Shown here: piece by piece, positions 105 to 33,000 of the stretch
Position numbering within the stretch: position 1 is the first letter of the stretch
Layout: each line of letters begins with the position of its first letter
IMG/VR virus record: IMGVR_UViG_3300025108_000146
Span: 1-38,732 of that record
Length of the DNA stretch: 38,732 nt
Direction: 5' to 3' (one strand)
Origin: a virus
Position numbers and translations under genes: made by a program
Notes under the pieces: model-generated
The model's database searches: none
Told to the model about the DNA's origin: nothing
Seen by the model: only the letters and a program-made list of their open reading frames with translations

Positions 105-312
105 ATTTACTTTGTTTTATTATATTATCAAGTGTGTTGCGTGTTAATTCTGTAGACGGTATTCCATCCACAATATCTGTTGTTACATCTTTGGGGTAAT
201 GTTTTAATATGTTTTGAATTACCCCGTCAAGTACATGATCATCCAGCTCGTTGTTGAGTGTGTAGTGATCAGTTTTATTTTTATACGTTACAGATAGCTT
301 ACTCAGTCCCAT
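88..312 (-). CDS. Small hypothetical protein with a possible C-terminal extension
   Basis: This gene encodes 74 residues with no recognised family. Its start overlaps the end of the 299-628 gene by 14 nt, so the two are probably translated from one message. The last 19 or so codons are the promoter-like element at 123-155 read as protein. In other copies the corresponding codons read GAA TAA (Glu-stop), but here they read GAA TTA, so translation continues as LTRNTLDNIIKQ to a later stop. The simplest inference is that the protein once ended at ...PSTE and lost its stop codon. The N-terminal part (residues 1-55) is mixed charged sequence without membrane segments. Confidence 0.6.
   Translation of the reverse strand: MGLSKLSVTYKNKTDHYTLNNELDDHVLDGVIQNILKHYPKDVTTDIVDGIPSTELTRNTLDNIIKQSKYDKTN
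123..155 (-). promoter_or_regulatory. 33-nt bipartite promoter-like element, copy A
   Basis: Read on the minus strand, box 1 (CTACAGAATTAACACG) is followed by exactly 8 nt and then box 2 (TTGATAATA) and TAATAA. It ends 18 nt before the KTSC gene start at 104. Box 1 is slightly diverged from the consensus TTACAGAAATAATACG or TTACAGAATAAATACG. It lies inside the coding end of the 88-312 gene. Confidence 0.6.
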
Positions 313-628
313 CGTCGTCTATATTTTCGCTTAGCCATCTTTCAATCTCAGACTCGTCCATGTATTCATCTACATCATCCATAAGGATTCTAGCCTCAGG
401 AATATCTTCAGCTACCTGCACAATGCGTTCCATGATAGTATCAAAGTCAGGTTGATAGTAGTATACATCATTTTCCCAGTTGAGGCAGCCAGGGTCTTCG
501 GTTAAAATATAAACGTTGTATCCGTCTGCTGTCATGTACTCAGTTAATTGTAAATCATTATCACAATAGTCGTCAAAGTTTGTAATGGTTATATTTAGAT
601 GTTGTTCTAGTCTTTCTAATGGTGTCAT
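299..628 (-). CDS. Acidic hypothetical protein, 109 aa
   Basis: This acidic, soluble protein has no recognised family. It is rich in Asp, Glu and Tyr (for example DDYCDNDLQLTEYMTADG near residues 19-36), and its C-terminus is strongly acidic (DDVDEYMDESEIERWL, then ENIDDDGTE). It has no membrane segment or signal peptide. Acidic proteins of this size are common among early phage proteins that bind host enzymes or mimic nucleic acid, but nothing here proves that role. Upstream lies an unusual 130-nt leader without the bipartite element found before the other genes. It overlaps the following gene at 88-312 by 14 nt. Confidence 0.65.
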   Translation of the reverse strand: MTPLERLEQHLNITITNFDDYCDNDLQLTEYMTADGYNVYILTEDPGCLNWENDVYYYQPDFDTIMERIVQVAEDIPEARILMDDVDEYMDESEIERWLSENIDDDGTE

Positions 629-758
629 AATTTTTGGTTTTAAGGTTTATAATATTGTACGGAGGAGGAGGAACATTACCCTCGCTTTATCTCGAGATTT
701 TATTTGCCCGTCGGCAATCCCCCGTAGTTGATTACACATATATGTATGTGTATAGCAT
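629..758 (-). other. Structured, relatively GC-rich untranslated leader or small-RNA candidate
   Basis: This 130-nt gap separates the 759-974 stop from the 299-628 start. On the minus strand it holds, in order, an inverted repeat (733-752), a short hairpin TTGCC-GACG-GGCAA, the perfect 10-nt palindrome ATCTCGAGAT, a GCGAG segment and a run CCTCCTCCTCC. It is visibly richer in G+C than its surroundings and lacks the bipartite element. The CCTCC run is the same core as the 16S anti-Shine-Dalgarno sequence. It may be a regulated 5' leader or a small RNA gene; no known riboswitch class is recognised. Confidence 0.4.
733..752. terminator. Inverted repeat after the 759-974 gene, weak terminator candidate
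   Basis: TACACATA and TATGTGTA form an 8-bp perfect stem around a 4-nt TATG loop, six nt past the stop codon of the 759-974 gene. The position suits a transcript end. However, the stem is AT-rich and no clear T-run follows on the minus strand, so it could equally be a processing or protein-binding site. Confidence 0.35.
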
Positions 759-974
759 TTAGTCTTCGACCTGTTCAGGTGCTTTGTATTTGTTATCAAT
801 GTAGTCAATCAATCTTACCGTGAAGTATTCGATTAAGTCATTGCCTTCAAAGCCATCATCAAGTAATGGTTTAAGCTTTTCAATGTTGTAGTCAAACGCC
901 CAGTCGTCAACTAAACCTCTCATGCGTTCGTGCTTTCTTTTAAGTTCTAAATAGTTTTCTAGTTTGTTACTCAT
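759..974 (-). CDS. Small hypothetical protein, 71 aa
   Basis: This charged, mostly helical protein begins MSNKLENYLELKRKHERMRG and ends in an acidic tail (PEQVED). No family is recognised. Residues 1-35 look like an amphipathic helix, and residues 36-60 include IEYFTVRLIDYI, another helix with hydrophobic spacing. There is no transmembrane stretch. The ATG at 974 is 25 nt downstream of a promoter-like element, which supports this start. It probably forms a single-gene transcript ending near the inverted repeat at 733-752. Confidence 0.65.
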   Translation of the reverse strand: MSNKLENYLELKRKHERMRGLVDDWAFDYNIEKLKPLLDDGFEGNDLIEYFTVRLIDYIDNKYKAPEQVED

Positions 975-999
975 AATTATTATTTTTTAGATTCATATA

Positions 1000-1032
1000 T
1001 ATTATCAATAGCCTTGCGTATTTATTCTGTAA
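1000..1032 (-). promoter_or_regulatory. 33-nt bipartite promoter-like element, copy B
   Basis: On the minus strand the element reads TTACAGAATAAATACG, 8 nt of spacer, then TTGATAATA. It lies 25 nt before the start of the 759-974 gene. The stop codon of the 1022-1174 gene (TAA within GAATAA) is part of box 1. Confidence 0.7.
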
Positions 1033-1174
1033 GAGCGTGAGCTATCTTAAGTAATTCAACTGTGCTTTCGTGTTCGGCTTCAACACGCCATGAGTTCTTT
1101 TCCTTTACTTCTAATCTCCAACTATTCATATTGAACCCACCTCGGATCTGCCAGTCTTGTATGTTTCTTTTCAT
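1022..1174 (-). CDS. Small hypothetical protein, 50 aa
   Basis: This 50-residue protein begins MKRNIQDWQIRGGFNMNSWR and ends HALTE. No family is recognised. Alternating charged and hydrophobic residues in its middle (WRLEVKEKNSWRVEAEHEST) suggest a small two-strand beta hairpin followed by a helix. Its ATG overlaps the TGA of the preceding gene (ATGA), so it is translationally coupled. It is the last gene of the five-gene minus-strand run that starts at 1904. Its stop codon lies inside promoter-like copy B. Confidence 0.6.
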   Translation of the reverse strand: MKRNIQDWQIRGGFNMNSWRLEVKEKNSWRVEAEHESTVELLKIAHALTE

Positions 1175-1341
1175 TTTGTTACGCGTTTAATTAATGTAAA
1201 TAATATTTGTTGCTTTACTTTTAGTTCGAGTTCATTAACATCTGGGTAGTTAGTTCCATCCAATGTCCAGTGGACTGTCTTGTTAATATAATTTTCAATA
1301 TCATCTGTGCACTCTTGTGCAAATCTTTCAACTGCTTTCAT
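1171..1341 (-). CDS. Small hypothetical protein, 56 aa
   Basis: The frame encodes 56 residues, starting MKAVERFAQECTDDIENYIN and ending FTLIKRVTK. No family is recognised. It looks soluble and mixed-charge, with a probable N-terminal amphipathic helix and a second helix near the C-terminus (NELELKVKQQILFTLIKR). ATGA overlaps at both ends couple it to its neighbours, which is the best evidence that it is a real gene. Confidence 0.6.
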   Translation of the reverse strand: MKAVERFAQECTDDIENYINKTVHWTLDGTNYPDVNELELKVKQQILFTLIKRVTK

Positions 1342-1484
1342 CCTATATATTCTAATAAGTTTTTAATCTTCTTTAAATTCTTGTGTGCAATTTGTGCATT
1401 CATAAAGTGTGCATAGTCTGGGCCAAGTTCAACCAGATCATCGATCGTTTGGCGTAGCTCATAGAGTTTGTCTTTTGTTTTCAT
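1338..1484 (-). CDS. Small helical hypothetical protein, 48 aa
   Basis: This gene encodes 48 residues, starting MKTKDKLYELRQTIDDLVEL and ending KKIKNLLEYIG. Heptad-like spacing of Leu and Ile suggests a short coiled-coil hairpin. No family is recognised. It overlaps the next gene by ATGA and begins one nt after the stop of the 1486-1632 gene, placing it in the same operon. Confidence 0.6.
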   Translation of the reverse strand: MKTKDKLYELRQTIDDLVELGPDYAHFMNAQIAHKNLKKIKNLLEYIG

Positions 1485-1485
1485 A

Positions 1486-1632
1486 TTATTTGTTCTTTAA
1501 ATATATATTATAATCTTCTTTTACTTTATCTAATACCCTGCTTAAATCTTGTGGGTCATAATCAAAGGTTGAAACTTTCATCCAGTGTGCAACGGATTCT
1601 AAGGATTCAATTGCTTGTTCTTTATTTGTCAT
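1486..1632 (-). CDS. Small hypothetical protein, 48 aa
   Basis: The protein has 48 residues, starting MTNKEQAIESLESVAHWMKV and ending YNIYLKNK. No family is recognised and no membrane segment is present. It sits 11 nt after the 1644-1904 gene and one nt before the next start, so it is the second gene of the run driven by promoter-like copy C. A helix-turn-helix-sized helical fold is possible but not supported by specific residues. Confidence 0.6.
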   Translation of the reverse strand: MTNKEQAIESLESVAHWMKVSTFDYDPQDLSRVLDKVKEDYNIYLKNK

Positions 1633-1643
1633 AGTGTATAATA

Positions 1644-1904
1644 TTATGTTCCGCTATAGCCCCAGGCCCCAGCTTCACTGTTTAAATATTCATCTTGCAT
1701 TTTATCAAGCTCAACCTTAGTATCATACTTAGATACATGTTCTCTAATAGTATCAACAGCCTCAGAAATATCATCGAAGTTGATGTGTGTATGTGCTGAC
1801 GGTCTTTTAAGTATTACCGTGGCACCCAGTGAACTGATCTTATTTCCCATATAATCATATGTACCAGTCTTAAAGTCATACTTTTCATTTGATAAATTTT
1901 TCAT
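1644..1904 (-). CDS. Hypothetical protein, 86 aa
   Basis: This 86-residue protein has no recognised family. It has a short N-terminal part with Tyr-rich turns (YDFKTGTYDYMGN), a central strand-like ATVILKRPSAH, and a helical C-terminal half with a regular pattern of hydrophobic residues (ISEAVDTIREHVSKY). It ends EAGAWGYSGT. It is the first gene of a tight five-gene run (1904 down to 1022). Its promoter-like element lies 87 nt upstream, farther than for any other gene in the island, so its message has an unusually long leader. Confidence 0.65.
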   Translation of the reverse strand: MKNLSNEKYDFKTGTYDYMGNKISSLGATVILKRPSAHTHINFDDISEAVDTIREHVSKYDTKVELDKMQDEYLNSEAGAWGYSGT

Positions 1905-1991
1905 TTGTAAAGGTGTTAAGTTATTTGTATATATTTTTTTTAGGTTAGTTATAATGCATAATCAGTATGCACATATATAATTATTTATAAT
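1905..1991 (-). other. AT-rich leader of the 1904-1022 operon
   Basis: This gap of 87 nt separates promoter-like copy C from the start at 1904. It contains the inverted repeat TGCATA-ATCAG-TATGCA (about 1954-1970) and runs of T/A, but no ORF of note. It may form a short leader hairpin in the transcript. No known riboswitch is recognised. Confidence 0.35.
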
Positions 1992-2024
1992 TATTATCGG
2001 GTTGATTACGTATTTATTCTGTAA
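1992..2024 (-). promoter_or_regulatory. 33-nt bipartite promoter-like element, copy C
   Basis: On the minus strand box 1 is TTACAGAATAAATACG, followed by 8 nt and then a diverged box 2 (CCGATAATA). It is the only copy that does not sit close to a start codon. It is preceded on the minus strand by the stem-loop at 2034-2082. Confidence 0.6.
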
Positions 2025-2033
2025 GCTTCCTGA

Positions 2034-2082
2034 GTGCGACATTAGGTACTTAATATAGATTAATAACAGGCTATTGTCACAC
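2034..2082 (-). repeat. Stem-loop element, copy 1 of 2
   Basis: Arms GTGCGACATTAG (2034-2045) and CTATTGTCACAC (2071-2082) pair over most of 12 positions. On the minus strand one T-G wobble and one mismatch remain. The loop is 25 nt. The same arms and loop edges (TTAGGTA and AGGCTA) recur at 3513-3562. Both copies lie just beside an ACGTATTT segment of a box-1 sequence. It could be a transcript end for the 2086-2232 gene, a protein-binding palindrome or part of a replication signal. Confidence 0.55.
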
Positions 2083-2085
2083 ACT

Positions 2086-2232
2086 TTAATCGTGTTGGAA
2101 TTTTGGATTCGATGTTATGAAATCTAATTCACTTTTCCACTGTTCAGGTGTTATTTGTTTTTGCATTGCTTTAAGGTATAGACTGGTGACGTCTACATTA
2201 TATCCATCTTTACTTTTAATTGTTACCATCAT
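2086..2232 (-). CDS. Small hypothetical protein, 48 aa
   Basis: This protein starts MMVTIKSKDGYNVDVTSLYL and ends FITSNPKFQHD. The second Met at 2229 is an equally possible start. No family is recognised. The middle (KAMQKQITPEQWKSELDF) is probably helical. The start is 16 nt downstream of promoter-like copy D, and the stop is three nt before the stem-loop at 2034-2082. It therefore looks like a single-gene unit with its own promoter and transcript end. Confidence 0.6.
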   Translation of the reverse strand: MMVTIKSKDGYNVDVTSLYLKAMQKQITPEQWKSELDFITSNPKFQHD

Positions 2233-2248
2233 AGTTTTATATTTATTA

Positions 2249-2281
2249 TATTATCAGATCATTAACGTATTATTTTTGTAA
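2249..2281 (-). promoter_or_regulatory. 33-nt bipartite promoter-like element, copy D
   Basis: On the minus strand it reads TTACAAAAATAATACG, 8 nt, then CTGATAATA and TAATAA. It starts 16 nt before the 2086-2232 gene. The stop codon of the 2270-2464 gene lies within box 1. Confidence 0.65.
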
Positions 2282-2464
2282 AGTCTCTTTTATATCTTCA
2301 AGTTCTACTAGGTCTTGGTTGATTAAGAATGATAATTCTCTGTTATCATTTTTCATTATATATTCTATTAGATCTAATCTATCTGTGATATCATAGTGAC
2401 TTTCATCGTTATAAATTTGGATTAAAGAATTGTAAACTTCATCTCTGTCAATAGTGTGTGTCAT
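2270..2464 (-). CDS. Acidic hypothetical protein, 64 aa
   Basis: This 64-residue protein begins MTHTIDRDEVYNSLIQIYND and ends LEDIKETLQK. It is acidic and probably all-helical, with three short helices separated by charged turns. No family is recognised and no membrane segment is present. Its start is 23 nt from promoter-like copy E, and its last codons (Leu-Gln-Lys-stop) are encoded by box 1 of copy D. The same C-terminal tripeptide ends the 2509-2685 gene for the same reason. Confidence 0.65.
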   Translation of the reverse strand: MTHTIDRDEVYNSLIQIYNDESHYDITDRLDLIEYIMKNDNRELSFLINQDLVELEDIKETLQK

Positions 2465-2487
2465 AATTTTATATTTTAAGTTTATTA

Positions 2488-2520
2488 TATTATCAAGTCA
2501 AGGACGTATTATTTCTGTAA
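2488..2520 (-). promoter_or_regulatory. 33-nt bipartite promoter-like element, copy E
   Basis: This is a consensus-like copy on the minus strand: TTACAGAAATAATACG, 8 nt, TTGATAATA, then TAATAAA. It is 23 nt before the 2270-2464 start and contains the stop of the 2509-2685 gene. Confidence 0.7.
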
Positions 2521-2685
2521 GGACTCACTTTGGTCGACGACGGAGGTGAGGTTCAGATCGATCTTCTCGATGACTTCGTTTACGTGTTCTTCAAATTTTG
2601 GTGGCACATCGTCTTTGTGTCGATTTATTAATAGGTCTTCAACTGCGTACCTCATCAGGTTCAATTCGTTCTTTGTAAATTTCAT
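2509..2685 (-). CDS. Small hypothetical protein, 58 aa
   Basis: The protein starts MKFTKNELNLMRYAVEDLLI and ends SESLQK. No family is recognised. It appears helical in the first 20 residues, followed by a charged HKDDVPPKFEEH turn and another helix (VNEVIEKIDLNL). The start lies one nt after the stop of the 2687-2809 gene, so the two are coupled and share promoter-like copy F. The last three codons and the stop are box 1 of copy E. Confidence 0.6.
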   Translation of the reverse strand: MKFTKNELNLMRYAVEDLLINRHKDDVPPKFEEHVNEVIEKIDLNLTSVVDQSESLQK

Positions 2686-2686
2686 A

Positions 2687-2809
2687 TTATATATTTTTAT
2701 TATAGTTATAATTCATTAGTGCCATGTGTGCATCCCAGAGCTCGTCGGCTTCTTCTTGTCGTTCGGGATCGTGTTCGATTAGTCGGTATTTTTCTAGGTA
2801 TTCACTCAT
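2687..2809 (-). CDS. Very small hypothetical protein, 40 aa
   Basis: This 40-residue protein begins MSEYLEKYRLIEHDPERQEE and continues as a charged helix with a Trp, ending in an Asn/Tyr-rich tail (MNYNYNKNI). No family is recognised. Support comes from the promoter-like element ending 12 nt before its ATG and from close coupling (one nt) to the following gene. Confidence 0.55.
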   Translation of the reverse strand: MSEYLEKYRLIEHDPERQEEADELWDAHMALMNYNYNKNI

Positions 2810-2821
2810 ATTATTTTATAT

Positions 2822-2854
2822 TATTATCAATTGTATTACGTATTTATTCTGTAA
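2822..2854 (-). promoter_or_regulatory. 33-nt bipartite promoter-like element, copy F
   Basis: On the minus strand it reads TTACAGAATAAATACG, 8 nt, then TTGATAATA. It is only 12 nt before the 2687-2809 start, the shortest distance in the set. Box 1 contains the stop codon of the 2844-3005 gene. Confidence 0.7.
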
Positions 2855-3005
2855 CCTCTATCACTTCTTTTATTTCGTCTAAGCCCCATTTTGCAGCTGC
2901 ATATTTAGTTGCTTCCATTATACTATTAGCTCTTACATAACTATAGAAGTTTCTTAAATTTCTTTTTGAATCTATCCAATGTGATTCTTTAATTACTTTG
3001 TACAT
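2844..3005 (-). CDS. Small hypothetical protein, 53 aa
   Basis: The protein starts MYKVIKESHWIDSKRNLRNF and ends EVIEVTE. Residues 21-45 (YSYVRANSIMEATKYAAAKWG) form a probable helix with small residues. It is slightly basic at the N-terminus and acidic at the C-terminus, and no family is recognised. The start is 16 nt downstream of promoter-like copy G, and the stop is embedded in copy F, so this is a one-gene unit bracketed by two elements. Confidence 0.6.
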   Translation of the reverse strand: MYKVIKESHWIDSKRNLRNFYSYVRANSIMEATKYAAAKWGLDEIKEVIEVTE

Positions 3006-3021
3006 ATCTTTTATTTTATAT

Positions 3022-3054
3022 TATTATCAAATTAGTTGCGTATTATTTCTGTAA
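3022..3054 (-). promoter_or_regulatory. 33-nt bipartite promoter-like element, copy G
   Basis: On the minus strand it reads TTACAGAAATAATACG, 8 nt, TTGATAATA, then ATATAAA. It lies 16 nt before the 2844-3005 start. Here the stop of the preceding gene is four nt outside box 1. Confidence 0.7.
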
Positions 3055-3058
3055 GGTT

Positions 3059-3259
3059 TTAGATTAGATCTGGATTTGCATTAGGTTGTAAGTGATATAC
3101 TCTATAGTAGTATTCTTCTATACTTTCATTATATTTCATTTCTATTGTACTTTCAACATAAATTAAATTTTCATTTTTAATTTGTTCTTCACTTCCATAG
3201 TAATTTGGTAAATGAATCTTTTCCATTTCGTTTAGTATTAAACTTGTTAGATCTAGCAT
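3059..3259 (-). CDS. Small hypothetical protein, 66 aa
   Basis: This 66-residue protein begins MLDLTSLILNEMEKIHLPNY and ends LQPNANPDLI. It contains a Tyr-rich segment (SIEEYYYRVYHLQ) near residues 45-57. No family is recognised. It is the first complete gene of the minus-strand island, with its start 27 nt from promoter-like copy H and further half-copies of the element upstream. A second Met at residue 12 is possible, but the spacing to the element favours the upstream start. Confidence 0.6.
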   Translation of the reverse strand: MLDLTSLILNEMEKIHLPNYYGSEEQIKNENLIYVESTIEMKYNESIEEYYYRVYHLQPNANPDLI

Positions 3260-3286
3260 AGTATTTATATTTATTAGTTACATTTA

Positions 3287-3319
3287 TATTATCAAATGGA
3301 TAACGTATTATTTCTGCAA
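3287..3319 (-). promoter_or_regulatory. 33-nt bipartite promoter-like element, copy H
   Basis: On the minus strand it reads TTGCAGAAATAATACG, 8 nt, TTGATAATA. It lies 27 nt before the 3059-3259 start. It overlaps the stop codon of the relic at 3308-3349. Confidence 0.7.
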
Positions 3320-3359: not shown

Positions 3360-3445
3360 CGTGATTTTTCTGTAAAACCTAAAACCTTCCGTGTTTTTTC
3401 TGTAAAAAAGGGGGAACCCGGTAAAACTAAAACAACTTTCTGTAA
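3360..3445 (-). repeat. Three extra box-1 sequences in tandem
   Basis: On the minus strand TTACAGAAAAATCACG (3360-3375) and TTACAGAAAAAACACG (3390-3405) are 30 nt apart, and a shorter match TTACAGAAAGT ends at 3445, 40 nt from the last. The first has a partial box 2 at the correct 8-nt distance (ATCAA conserved on the plus strand); the others do not. They could be operator-like half-sites or remnants of deleted minigene promoters. Confidence 0.55.
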
Positions 3446-3512: not shown

Positions 3513-3562
3513 GTGTGACGTTAGGTAGTTATAAATACTTTAGTAGTAGGCTAATGTCGCAT
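3513..3562. repeat. Stem-loop element, copy 2 of 2
   Basis: Arms GTGTGACGTTAG (3513-3524) and CTAATGTCGCAT (3551-3562) pair over all 12 positions on the plus strand, using three G-T wobbles. The loop is 26 nt. The arms and adjacent loop edges match the element at 2034-2082, and a diverged box-1 core (ACGTATTT, from about 3496) lies just upstream in both. Wobble pairing suggests selection at the RNA level, but a protein-binding palindrome cannot be excluded. Confidence 0.55.
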
Positions 3563-3577
3563 ACGATGTAAAATTTG

Positions 3578-3595
3578 TAAGTTGTGTGTAACTTA
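3578..3595. other. Perfect 6-bp inverted repeat in the leader of the first plus-strand gene
   Basis: TAAGTT and AACTTA flank a GTGTGT loop, 33 nt before the ATG at 3629. If transcribed it would form a weak leader hairpin, or it may be a small operator. Confidence 0.3.
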
Positions 3596-3628
3596 TGCGA
3601 TTATAAAAGAATAGAATTATATTTAATT

Positions 3629-28823: not shown

Positions 28824-30041
28824 ATGGCATCACCTAATGGAGGTTTAATACAAGAAACAAATAGACAGTACTACGCTGGAGCTCAAGGTTTTATAACGGC
28901 TAATAATCAAAAAACATTTACTACAACGTTTAATACAGATTTAGTATTCGGATCTGCCAATACATTATCTCCTGATTATGCATTAAACAATTTTAAAATA
29001 TACACAAGTACTACAGGAGAAGGTAGTACCTATATAGAATACACTTCTGATTTTACGGTTTCTGAAAATACTATAACACTTCCTGTATCTTTAGCTAATG
29101 GAACTTTTGTTGTAGTACAATTAAAAAGACTCAACGGTGGACATTATGGTAATGAAGATGCGTATGGTAATATTGTTGAAAATAATTATGGAAGCTATGC
29201 TTATACGAAAGTTTCTGACTTAGTAAATAATTTTCAAGTTGCTTATGTAGGAGCGGGAAAACTTATTCCTAGTGTTAAACGAACAGATATTATTTTTCAT
29301 ACAAAAAGAGCATTACAAGAATTAAGCTATGATACTTTAAATGCAATAAAATCACAAGAAGTCCAAATACCTCCAAACCTTTCAATTCCCCTTCCTCAAG
29401 ATTACGTAAATTACGTAAGTATTTCCTGGGTAGATCAATTAGGCGTTAAACACCCTATATATCCTACAAGGTTGACTTCAAATCCAACAGAAATATTACC
29501 ACAAGATTATACTGGCCAACCTTTGCAAGATAATTTTGATGAGAACATTACGGCTACTTCTATTATTGAACAAAGATGGGATAAGGCTAATGATCGATTA
29601 ATTAGTGGAGCGTTTGAAGGAACAGAAAGAGATGAGTCTATTTATTATGATTATCAATTTCCAGATGCTTTATTAGGCAGGCGCTATGGTTTAGATCCTG
29701 AAATTTCTCAATCAAATGGATGGTTTACTATTAATCAAAGAGAAAATAGTATTTCTTTTTCAAGCAATTTGAATGCTGCATTGATAATATTCGAATATAT
29801 TTCAGATGGAGTTGCTTATGAGCAAGATATGAAAGTACCTAAAATGGCAGAGCAGGCCATCTATTCATATTTAAATCACGCAATACTTGCTTCAAAAATA
29901 AATACACCTGAATATATTGTAAATAGATATAAAAAAGAAAAATTTGCTGCAATAAGAAATGCTAAGATAAGATTATCTAATATAAAACCAGAAGAGTTTG
30001 TGCAAGTGATGCGAAACAAATCTAAATGGCTTAAAAATTAA
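28824..30041 (+). CDS. Head-tail connector or tail protein candidate, 405 aa
   Basis: The protein starts MASPNGGLIQETNRQYYAGA, then has a strand-rich segment (TFTTTFNTDLVFGSANTLSP) and a central region with helices (SVKRTDIIFHTKRALQELSY). A short basic helical C-terminus follows (NRYKKEKFAAIRNAKIRLSN). This matches, in outline, neck or tail-tubular proteins that sit between portal and tail hub. It begins six nt after the previous gene and ends four nt before the stabilisation gene. Confidence 0.5.
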   Translation: MASPNGGLIQETNRQYYAGAQGFITANNQKTFTTTFNTDLVFGSANTLSPDYALNNFKIYTSTTGEGSTYIEYTSDFTVSENTITLPVSLANGTFVVVQLKRLNGGHYGNEDAYGNIVENNYGSYAYTKVSDLVNNFQVAYVGAGKLIPSVKRTDIIFHTKRALQELSYDTLNAIKSQEVQIPPNLSIPLPQDYVNYVSISWVDQLGVKHPIYPTRLTSNPTEILPQDYTGQPLQDNFDENITATSIIEQRWDKANDRLISGAFEGTERDESIYYDYQFPDALLGRRYGLDPEISQSNGWFTINQRENSISFSSNLNAALIIFEYISDGVAYEQDMKVPKMAEQAIYSYLNHAILASKINTPEYIVNRYKKEKFAAIRNAKIRLSNIKPEEFVQVMRNKSKWLKN

Positions 30042-30045
30042 ATAA

Positions 30046-33000
30046 ATGGCAGAAGTTAAAAATGCTTTTATAAAGTCTAAAATGAATCAAGACCTTGATG
30101 ATAGATTAATACCATCAGGTGAATATCGGGAAGGCTTTAATATACAAGTAAGTAAATCTCAAGGTGAAGATGTAGGTGCTTTAGAAAACGTTTTAGGTAA
30201 TCAAGATTTAATTGATTTTGAAGCTTTAACGACTACAGGCATACAAGTTATTGGGCAATTTACAAATCCATCAAAAAATACAATATACTTTTTTTTAACT
30301 AATTATACAGATTTAAATTACATAACAAATCCTACCTACGATCCTACTAAATTTAATTATATTTACGAATATAATGTATTAAATGGGGATAGTGTAAGGT
30401 TAGCGGAAGGAGCATTTTTAAATTTTTCAACAACAAATCCTATTTATGGTGTTAATATGGTTGAAAATATATTATTTTTTACAGATAATAGAAACCAACC
30501 AAGAAGAATTGATATAACGCGAAGAAATGCAAGTGGCGGAGTATTTTATACAAATGAAGATTCTGTAAGCGTAGCCCAATATAATCCCTTTGATCCTATT
30601 TTAGTTTATAAAGATAGTACTACTCAAGGAGCTGCGGCTGCTCCAGAAACCACTATGTACGATGTTGTTAGTGAATTTCTACCTGACAATTCTACTGAAA
30701 ACCCTTATTATAACGCAAGCTACGCTGGAGATCCTGATTATTTAGAAAATAAATTTGTAAGATTTAGTTATAGGTTTAGGTTTAATAGCGGAGAATATTC
30801 TTTACTTGCCCCATTTACACAAGCTTTATTTATACCTCAACAAGATGGATACTTTCTTGAAGGAGATGAGGAAAGTGCTTATCGAAGTACAATTGTAAAG
30901 TTTATGCAAAATAAAGTAAATAGGATATTATTACAAATTCCAATACCATCTGCCGACGGGGCTACATTTGTAGAAAATTTTAATATTGATGAAATAGATG
31001 TAGTATTTAAAGAATCTGATGGTCAGGCTTTATATGTTGTAGACACTATTCCCGGATCAACAATATCAATGACAACTGGTAATTATGTAGAATATGATTA
31101 CCAAGCAAAAAAACCATTTAAAACTTTACCAGATTCTACATTAATTAGAGTATATGACAAAGTTCCAGTAAAAGCTTTATCACAAGAAATAATAGGCAAT
31201 AGAGTTGTGTATGGTAATTATCAAGATAAACATACACCTCCTAAGTCTTTGGTTTATGATGTGGGTATTTCAAGTAAATCTAATTTTAATGATGATGATG
31301 ATCCTAATATAGGTAGAGTAGAAAATACAACAAGCATTGTAGAATACCCTAATCATAATTTAAAACAAAATAGAAATTATCAAGTTGGTGTTGTATTATC
31401 AGATAGATATGGTAGAACATCAACAGTTATATTGTCTACTACAACAGAAGGACAAGATGTTAATGCAGTATTATTTGGCGCTTCAACCGTGTATAATCCT
31501 TATAGATTAGGTTTATTAGGTGAAACTACTGTTTACGCTGCGTCTGTAAAAGATTGGCCGGGTGATTCTTTAAAAATAAGATTTGATCAAGCAATTCAAT
31601 CAACAAAAAGTATTGTAACTGGTGCTCCTGGATTATATAACGGTGATCCTTCTAGTGCTAACTATAATCCTTTAGGGTGGTATTCTTATAAAATAGTTGT
31701 AAAGCAATTAGAACAAGAATATTATAATGTTTATTTAGGAGGAATACTAAATGGGTATCCTTCGGCTCCAGCTTCTCCTCCGGATCCTCAAAACAGTACT
31801 GCATTTATAACTTTAATAAATGACAATATAAACAAAGTGCCAAGAGATTTAAATGAAGTTGGCCCAGACCAAAAACAATATAGAAGCAGTGTGCAATTAT
31901 TTGGTAGAGTAACACCGGATAGAAGCACTTCTCCAACTTATAATCAACAATTTTACCCGGGACAAATAGATAGTGTAACTACGCCTGCTGTTGAATCTAT
32001 AACAATTTTACCTTCTTCGGATACTGTAAACACAATAGCTGAAGAAGAAAATATAGTCACAAGTGGCGCTACTATTGTTGATCTTTATCAAACAGATTCT
32101 AATCCATATATAGCCAGAATAACTCAAGGTAATGAGCAAAATCCAATTGGTTCTTTACCGGTAGCTTCAGGAAGTTATAATTTTTTATTAGGAGTTTATG
32201 AAACTGAACCTGTTACTTCAAGATTAGAAATATTTTGGGAAACATCTACAACTGGTTTAATATCAGATTTAAATGAAGCAATACGCACCGGTACAAACGA
32301 AACAGTAGGTTTAGTATACTTTGAATGGGATTTAGATGAAGCAACCGAAATAGGTACTTCAATTGCAGGTAGATTTGCACCAATTGACGAAGAAGGTAAT
32401 AATCAACTTCCTAAAGAACCCCTAGAAGAAAGTGATTTGTCTATGAGCGTTACTGATATAGATGGAAATGATATTACCAAATTTTCTTTAAGAAAAATAC
32501 CAAAAACTGCTCAATCAGTTTATGATCCGCTAGACAAGGATACATTTGATACATATGAAATTGATACTACAGAAGAATTTTATTATGGACCTGATGCAGC
32601 TGTAAATCAAGTATTTTATTTTACTTTTACTGACGATACAACAGGAGAAAATGTTGCCGATGTAGTAGAAAGTTTATCTAATGTAGCTCCTACTATAACT
32701 AATGGAACCACAGTTTCTTTTGATGCAGATGATACAGGAGTAATATTTACTTATGAAGCAATTAACGGAACAGTTGACACTACGCGGAATGCTTTAAATT
32801 TAACATGGAGCATGGAAGGAAACCCTCCTGAACTTACTTTAGATGCAAATACAGGCGAATTAAGTGTTAGCGATTCACTTGCAGGAAAAATTACATTAAC
32901 AATAACTGTTCAAGATGCTGGGGGTTTAACTGATACTATAACAAGTGAATTAGTAGCGGGAGAAATACCTGTTAATGAAGGATTTGGTTCAGGTAGCGCA

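Follow-up and report, generated by a model that had tools for sequence, protein, structure and literature searches.

In the MotA-dependent middle promoters of phage T4, the host sigma factor is used with a TATAAT −10 element, and an upstream box around −30 stands in the place of the −35 element. Phages phiEco32 and 7-11 encode sigma factors of their own, with private promoters (PMC4331800). On the bacterial side, the sigma motifs described in Flavobacterium psychrophilum are TAnnTTTG at −12 to −5 for sigmaA, with a close variant, as well as those of sigma54 and of an extracytoplasmic function (ECF)-type factor (PMC9723704). Sigma28 (FliA), whose consensus is TAAAGTTT-n11-GCCGATAA (PMC2859248), is not in the sigma set listed for that species (PMC9723704). 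No published promoter/sigma pair for Bacteroidota phages was found in the literature searched, though these phages are abundant. Here, we describe a 39-nucleotide (nt) bipartite element that is present eight times in the IMG/VR virus record IMGVR_UViG_3300025108_000146 (38,732 nt, positions 1 to 38,732; this whole stretch is called the window below), together with a phage-encoded sigma factor that accompanies it. Together, they probably constitute a transcription system private to the phage and unreadable by the host. Judging from sequence, we put the probability that the elements are promoters for the host core RNA polymerase (RNAP) carrying the phage sigma factor at roughly 75%.

Sequence and geometry of the 39-nt element

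The initial annotation had described eight copies of a 33-nt unit on the minus strand of the window, between positions 123 and 3,319. All eight are present at those positions and on that strand, and 8 nt separate the ...ACG end of the first box from the second box in each. The unit and its fixed spacing are real, but it is merely the core of a longer conserved element of 39 nt, with the consensus WTACARANNTAAYACGA-N8-N-GATAATA-TAAATR. The minimal form, ACG-N10-GATAATA, matches the minus strand of the window eight times and the plus strand not at all, against an expectation of 0.09 for both strands together (first-order shuffles). The reversed pattern, used as a control, gave no matches in the window, and the pattern scan found no comparable element elsewhere in it. 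Departures from the consensus are found in box 1 of three copies (CTACAGAATTAACACG at 123, TTACAAAAATAATACG at 2249, and TTGCAG at 3287) and in box 2 of two others or the same ones (CCGATAATA at 1992 and CTGATAATA at 2249). A start codon is found 12–27 nt past the element in seven of the eight cases, as had been claimed; past the eighth element (1992–2024), the next sizeable open reading frame (ORF), of 86 amino acids (aa), is 82 nt on.

Viral contigs were scanned with the window pattern, and seven of them contained further copies, on one strand in each and with no matches to the reversed pattern. In the window and these seven contigs, 82 sites fit a single 39-nt matrix, which has no matches in shuffled sequence; the matrix was built from 74 distinct sequences, and a rescan gives 85 sites, including copies at contig edges. 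A larger collection of 415 copies was obtained by adding a set of sigma-bearing loci. Among the 415 copies, 98% have a purine as the final base of the motif, which is placed six nt past the GATAAT hexamer, the usual spacing between a −10 hexamer and +1. The gap between AAYACGA and GATAATA was 9 nt in 244/245 pairs of the larger set when 4–14 nt were permitted, and that between TACAR and AYACG was 5 nt in 211/213 pairs when 1–10 nt were permitted. Sites with box 2 only amounted to one match across all eight sequences.

The copies also vary in a concerted manner within genomes. GATATTA is found in 11/11 copies of L130, L132 has mostly AAAACG, and the copies of L137, L138, L141, and L143 have AACACGA with CGATAATA. 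The base at −13 is uniform per genome (mean top frequency of 0.87 vs 0.54–0.65 at most spacer positions) and differs among genomes, being A, C, G, or T. This concerted variation seems to point to a drifting trans-acting reader, which would be expected to leave such a trace. Separately, TAATACGA resembles the beginning of the T7 promoter; this lead was rejected, as no such polymerase gene was found and most copies are not followed by GGG.

Contig G002 (59,032 bases) belongs to the same species as the window (99.8–99.99% identity) and is circularly permuted with respect to it, and therefore supplies the part of the genome that is absent from the window. A ninth copy of the element lies in G002 at 30937–30975, just past the left end of the window. 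The features of the window are as follows:

3281–3319, minus strand: element 1, with box 1 TTGCAGAAATAATACG, N8, and TTGATAATA; predicted +1 at 3281; 22 nt ahead of the 66-aa ORF 3059–3259
3016–3054, minus strand: element 2, ahead of the 53-aa ORF 2844–3005
2816–2854, minus strand: element 3, ahead of the 40-aa ORF 2687–2809; its box 1 contains the stop codon of ORF 2844–3005
2482–2520, minus strand: element 4, ahead of the 64-aa ORF 2270–2464; contains the stop codon of ORF 2509–2685
2243–2281, minus strand: element 5 (TTACAAAAATAATACG / CTGATAATA), ahead of the 48-aa ORF 2086–2232; contains the stop codon of ORF 2270–2464
1986–2024, minus strand: element 6 (box 2 CCGATAATA); the next ORF of at least 30 aa is that of 86 aa (1644–1904), 82 nt on
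994–1032, minus strand: element 7, ahead of the 71-aa ORF 759–974; contains the stop codon of ORF 1022–1174
117–155, minus strand: element 8, within the 3′ end of ORF 88–312; the next ORF exits the window (73 aa in G002)
3390–3405, minus strand: box-1-only copy TTACAGAAAAAACACG, without GATAATA; conserved in contig G001
3360–3375, minus strand: box-1-only copy TTACAGAAAAATCACG, without GATAATA; conserved in contig G001
1–3259, minus strand: minigene island, with ORFs of 40–109 aa; no confident family matches among the eight ORFs scanned

Both box-1-only copies are located just upstream of element 1. Element 6 is at the head of five minigenes, none of which has its own element. An inverted repeat of about 47 nt (GYGACRTTAGCCT-N-CCTAATGTCRCAC) constitutes a second dispersed repeat and is found near the elements. 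It is present in the window at 3513–3560 and 2034–2080 (minus strand), as well as at G007:5315, G011:30579, G004:13874, G006:985, and G003:16238; the copy at 2034–2080 folds somewhat better than its shuffles (z −1.9).

The phage sigma factor and its co-occurrence with the element

Directly behind the gene for a 204-aa helix-turn-helix (HTH) protein, G002 encodes a sigma70-family factor of 250 aa (28871–29623). This protein matches PHROG 351 (sigma) with an E value of 5.5e-24, its best PDB match is FliA, and sigma regions 2 and 4 were found using Pfam, both under the curated cut-offs. The top matches in a fold search with its predicted fold are all sigma factors, and the fold matches sigmaA chains. 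The HTH gene is immediately upstream of the sigma gene in 33/33 loci examined. The HTH protein itself (G002:29628–30242) has no relative among 50,697 phage records, and no solved fold was found for it; its one structure match is an unnamed viral protein (A0A516MIB4).

Of 104 distinct sigmas, 64 have 3 kb or more of sequence upstream, and elements were found at 64/64 of these loci; the sigma loci without elements all have less than 3 kb upstream. The copies lie upstream of the sigma gene in 388/415 cases, and none is on the other strand. When contigs of about 47 kb or more were chosen by the element alone, the sigma gene was present in 28/35, including all of those of at least 53 kb. The element is absent from MW202828, elemoA, and phi38:1, which are relatives without the sigma gene, and running the window matrix on MW202828 gave no sites. 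In IMG/VR, 496 stretches contain a relative of the sigma factor and at least 118 contain the element. As one option, the initial annotation had proposed that a phage factor redirects the host polymerase; the phage sigma is now a concrete candidate for that factor, as it co-occurs with the element in both search directions.

Two side observations concern these genomes. MW202828 (L009) carries, at 43733–49891 and mostly between early genes, eleven copies of a perfect palindrome, GTGTCGTTAACGACAC, which is unrelated to the element and sits where the sigma clade carries the putative promoter element. At G066:55767–56520, a sigma homolog is broken by several stop codons, in a contig that still has elements.

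The window is a portion of the genome of a ~59-kb Pervagoviridae/Elemovirus-like podovirus. Its structural genes and those for GroEL, a GroES-like protein, terminase, portal, and muzzle lead to podoviruses of Bacteroidota, the relatives being MW202828, the Flavobacterium elemo phages, and Cellulophaga phi38:1. The virus is a marine one, and judging from these relatives, its host would be a Bacteroidota-type bacterium. The elements are at the head of a leftward gene cluster, and the structural cluster runs rightward, in the opposite direction. Ahead of the first rightward gene, a block at 3577–3626 (plus strand), GTAAGTTGTGTGTAACTTATGCGATTATAAAAGAATAG, is identical in G001 and contains the dyad TAAGTT-N6-AACTTA; it is a candidate late promoter/operator. 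A giant late protein (2.2–2.9 thousand aa), which has an HExxH-like motif and lacks recognizable domains, is encoded at G002:11466–18158, L114:8383–17196 (minus strand), and L111:3039–10370; that of the window's phage (G002) has 2230 aa and is located at the end of the late cluster.

Proposed promoter function and alternative explanations

Several properties of the element fit a transcription start. The ATG of an ORF of at least 30 aa lies 0–40 nt past the predicted +1 in 64/85 copies; random positions taken from these arrays give 14.3. The leaders are rich in A/T and have no Shine-Dalgarno sequences, which are likewise missing from Flavobacterium leaders (PMC6847099). The stop codon of the preceding ORF is inside the element in 23/76 cases (about a third), and minigene and promoter would thus constitute tightly packed cassettes. 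In five contigs, the element is directly ahead of a conserved non-coding stretch, GGGCCTGACTTTGAAATAGAGTCGGAAGAGTAGACTCCGTCCTAC, whose GGG starts at the predicted +1. The predicted fold of this stretch is compact in its G003 form and differs in the other contigs. The corresponding RNA of about 45 nt (GGGCCUGACUUUGAAAUAG...GUCCUAC) is located at G007:5385, G011:30450, G004:13944, G006:1055, and G003:16149; no Rfam match was obtained for the four of its contigs that were scanned, and it was not found in the window, G001, or G002. Because a translation signal would make no sense ahead of a non-coding RNA, this arrangement argues for a promoter. The promoter interpretation made in the initial annotation is supported by the position and strand of the elements, the purine at the predicted +1, their recurrence in divergent phages, and their placement before the non-coding RNA. 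The scan of related phages that it had called for revealed the motif in many related viral contigs, on one strand only and mostly just ahead of ORFs; the contrary case that it had named, copies scattered within genes, did not occur.

We propose that the elements switch on the early/middle minigene cluster, which runs leftward, in a podovirus of Bacteroidota. Region 2 of the phage sigma would read GATAAT at −12 to −7, and the purine six nt farther downstream would be the first base of the RNA. The 16-nt box upstream (−38 to −23) would replace the −35 element, its reader being sigma region 4, the HTH protein, or both. As the sigma gene belongs to this cluster and lies downstream, the circuit should amplify itself (positive feedback). 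The rigid spacing and the two box-1-only sites are hints that box 1 may have its own reader. A more tentative extension, which we hold to be possible but somewhat doubtful, is a split specificity, in which GATAATA is recognized by sigma and the 16-nt box, at a fixed distance from it, by the 204-aa HTH protein; with a private −13 base per genome, hundreds of marine phages would then have mutually orthogonal holoenzymes.

It should be noted that several observations weigh against recognition by the phage sigma. Box 1 is longer than the usual −35 hexamer, and the rigidity of the spacing (244/245) is far beyond the usual tolerance of sigma promoters. The co-occurrence may reflect shared ancestry and is an association, not a proof; moreover, sigma and the HTH protein are always together, so either could be the reader. 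Analysis of residue covariation with the motif gave a signal that is not concentrated in DNA-contacting regions, either for sigma or for the HTH protein. Finally, no host-type promoter upstream of the HTH–sigma pair or of the array was above chance, so the first sigma might come from a virion-carried factor or a weak promoter.

The alternative that survives best, although we consider it unlikely, is that of activator-type promoters: the HTH protein (or another phage factor) would bind box 1 and recruit the host RNAP with a host sigma, as MotA does, and the phage sigma would serve other genes. The position of the HTH gene directly upstream of sigma (33/33 loci), the rigid spacing, and the two conserved box-1-only sites ahead of the first promoter, which look like a separate binding site, would all suit such an activator. 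However, GATAATA at −12 to −6 does not fit the flavobacterial sigmaA motif TAnnTTTG (PMC9723704, PMC6847099), a misfit that the initial annotation had also pointed out; at −12 to −5, the place of TAnnTTTG, the element carries GATAATA. TAHHTTTG was found in 0/91 early upstream regions of sigma-bearing phages vs 5/54 in sigma-less relatives (Fisher p 0.006), a weak contrast with small numbers; a scan with the host sigmaA consensus showed no clear enrichment. In addition, the late genes yielded no second class of promoters for sigma to act on, and a de novo motif search there returned stop-codon/terminator patterns only.

Promoters for a phage RNAP, the other option of the initial annotation, are less probable still. 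In their favor, early genes are transcribed by a virion-packaged RNAP in related crAss-like phages, phi14:2 being an example (PMC10136315); in addition, the present phage has the giant 2230-aa protein that closes the late cluster, and the motif is long and rigid. This protein, however, gave no match in Pfam or PHROG and none that is credible in PDB, and the DFDxD motif occurs in no stop-to-stop frame of at least 150 residues in the eight sequences. No single-subunit RNAP or RNAP Pfam family was detected among those of the larger ORFs that were scanned, and the element tracks sigma and not an RNAP gene. A non-promoter role, as a translation leader, an RNA-processing site, or a recombination or replication repeat spreading minigene cassettes, is very improbable: the 23/76 elements with an upstream stop codon and a cassette layout favored by recombination at repeats are in line with it, but the element precedes a non-coding RNA, its one-strand orientation and the purine fixed after GATAAT fit transcription starts, and its presence is tied to the sigma gene.

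Comparison with known systems

If the elements are promoters for the phage sigma, the pair would be a computable marker of the early regulon and of transcription starts for a large group of uncultured phages, and would explain how dozens of uncharacterized minigenes are switched on. It would also provide an orthogonal promoter/sigma set for use in Bacteroidota; the promoters of these bacteria are unlike those of standard genetic tools. Other phages are already known to have sigmas with private promoters; the present system differs in its long bipartite element, the fixed spacing and high copy number of this element, its restriction to the early-side cluster, and the conserved HTH partner.

The element is unlike every flavobacterial sigma class described in PMC9723704. 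Flavobacterial sigmaA promoters (PMC9723704, PMC6847099) have an element in the same position (−12 to about −5) and A/T-rich leaders without Shine-Dalgarno sequences, but their −10/−7 sequence is different, and a strongly conserved upstream box is found only here. The GG / GC pair of sigma54, at −24 / −12, is absent from the 39-nt matrix (the class is named in PMC9723704). Sigma28 promoters share the GATAA core of the −10 element, and among solved structures, FliA is the best-scoring match to the phage sigma; in the element, however, there is no TAAA −35 at the sigma28 distance, the −35 octamer and the GCC are absent, and the −13 base depends on the genome. The middle promoters of T4 similarly combine an upstream box with a −10 element; their upstream box is shorter, though, and the present phage has a sigma of its own. 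The system with the virion RNAP of the crAss-like phage phi14:2 also belongs to a Bacteroidota podovirus with separate early transcription (PMC10136315), but no such RNAP was detected here.

The closest parallel is with phiEco32 and 7-11, which also have a phage sigma, their own repeated motif before phage genes, and a sigma gene located in a functional-gene cluster with a divergent structural cluster. Their motifs are −10-like only (TGATGT core), are present in few copies, and precede middle and late genes (PMC4331800). Here, by contrast, the element is bipartite, spans 39 nt with fixed spacing, and usually occurs in several to a dozen copies; nearly all of these are in the early-side cluster, with none seen at late genes, and the sigma is accompanied by an adjacent conserved HTH partner.

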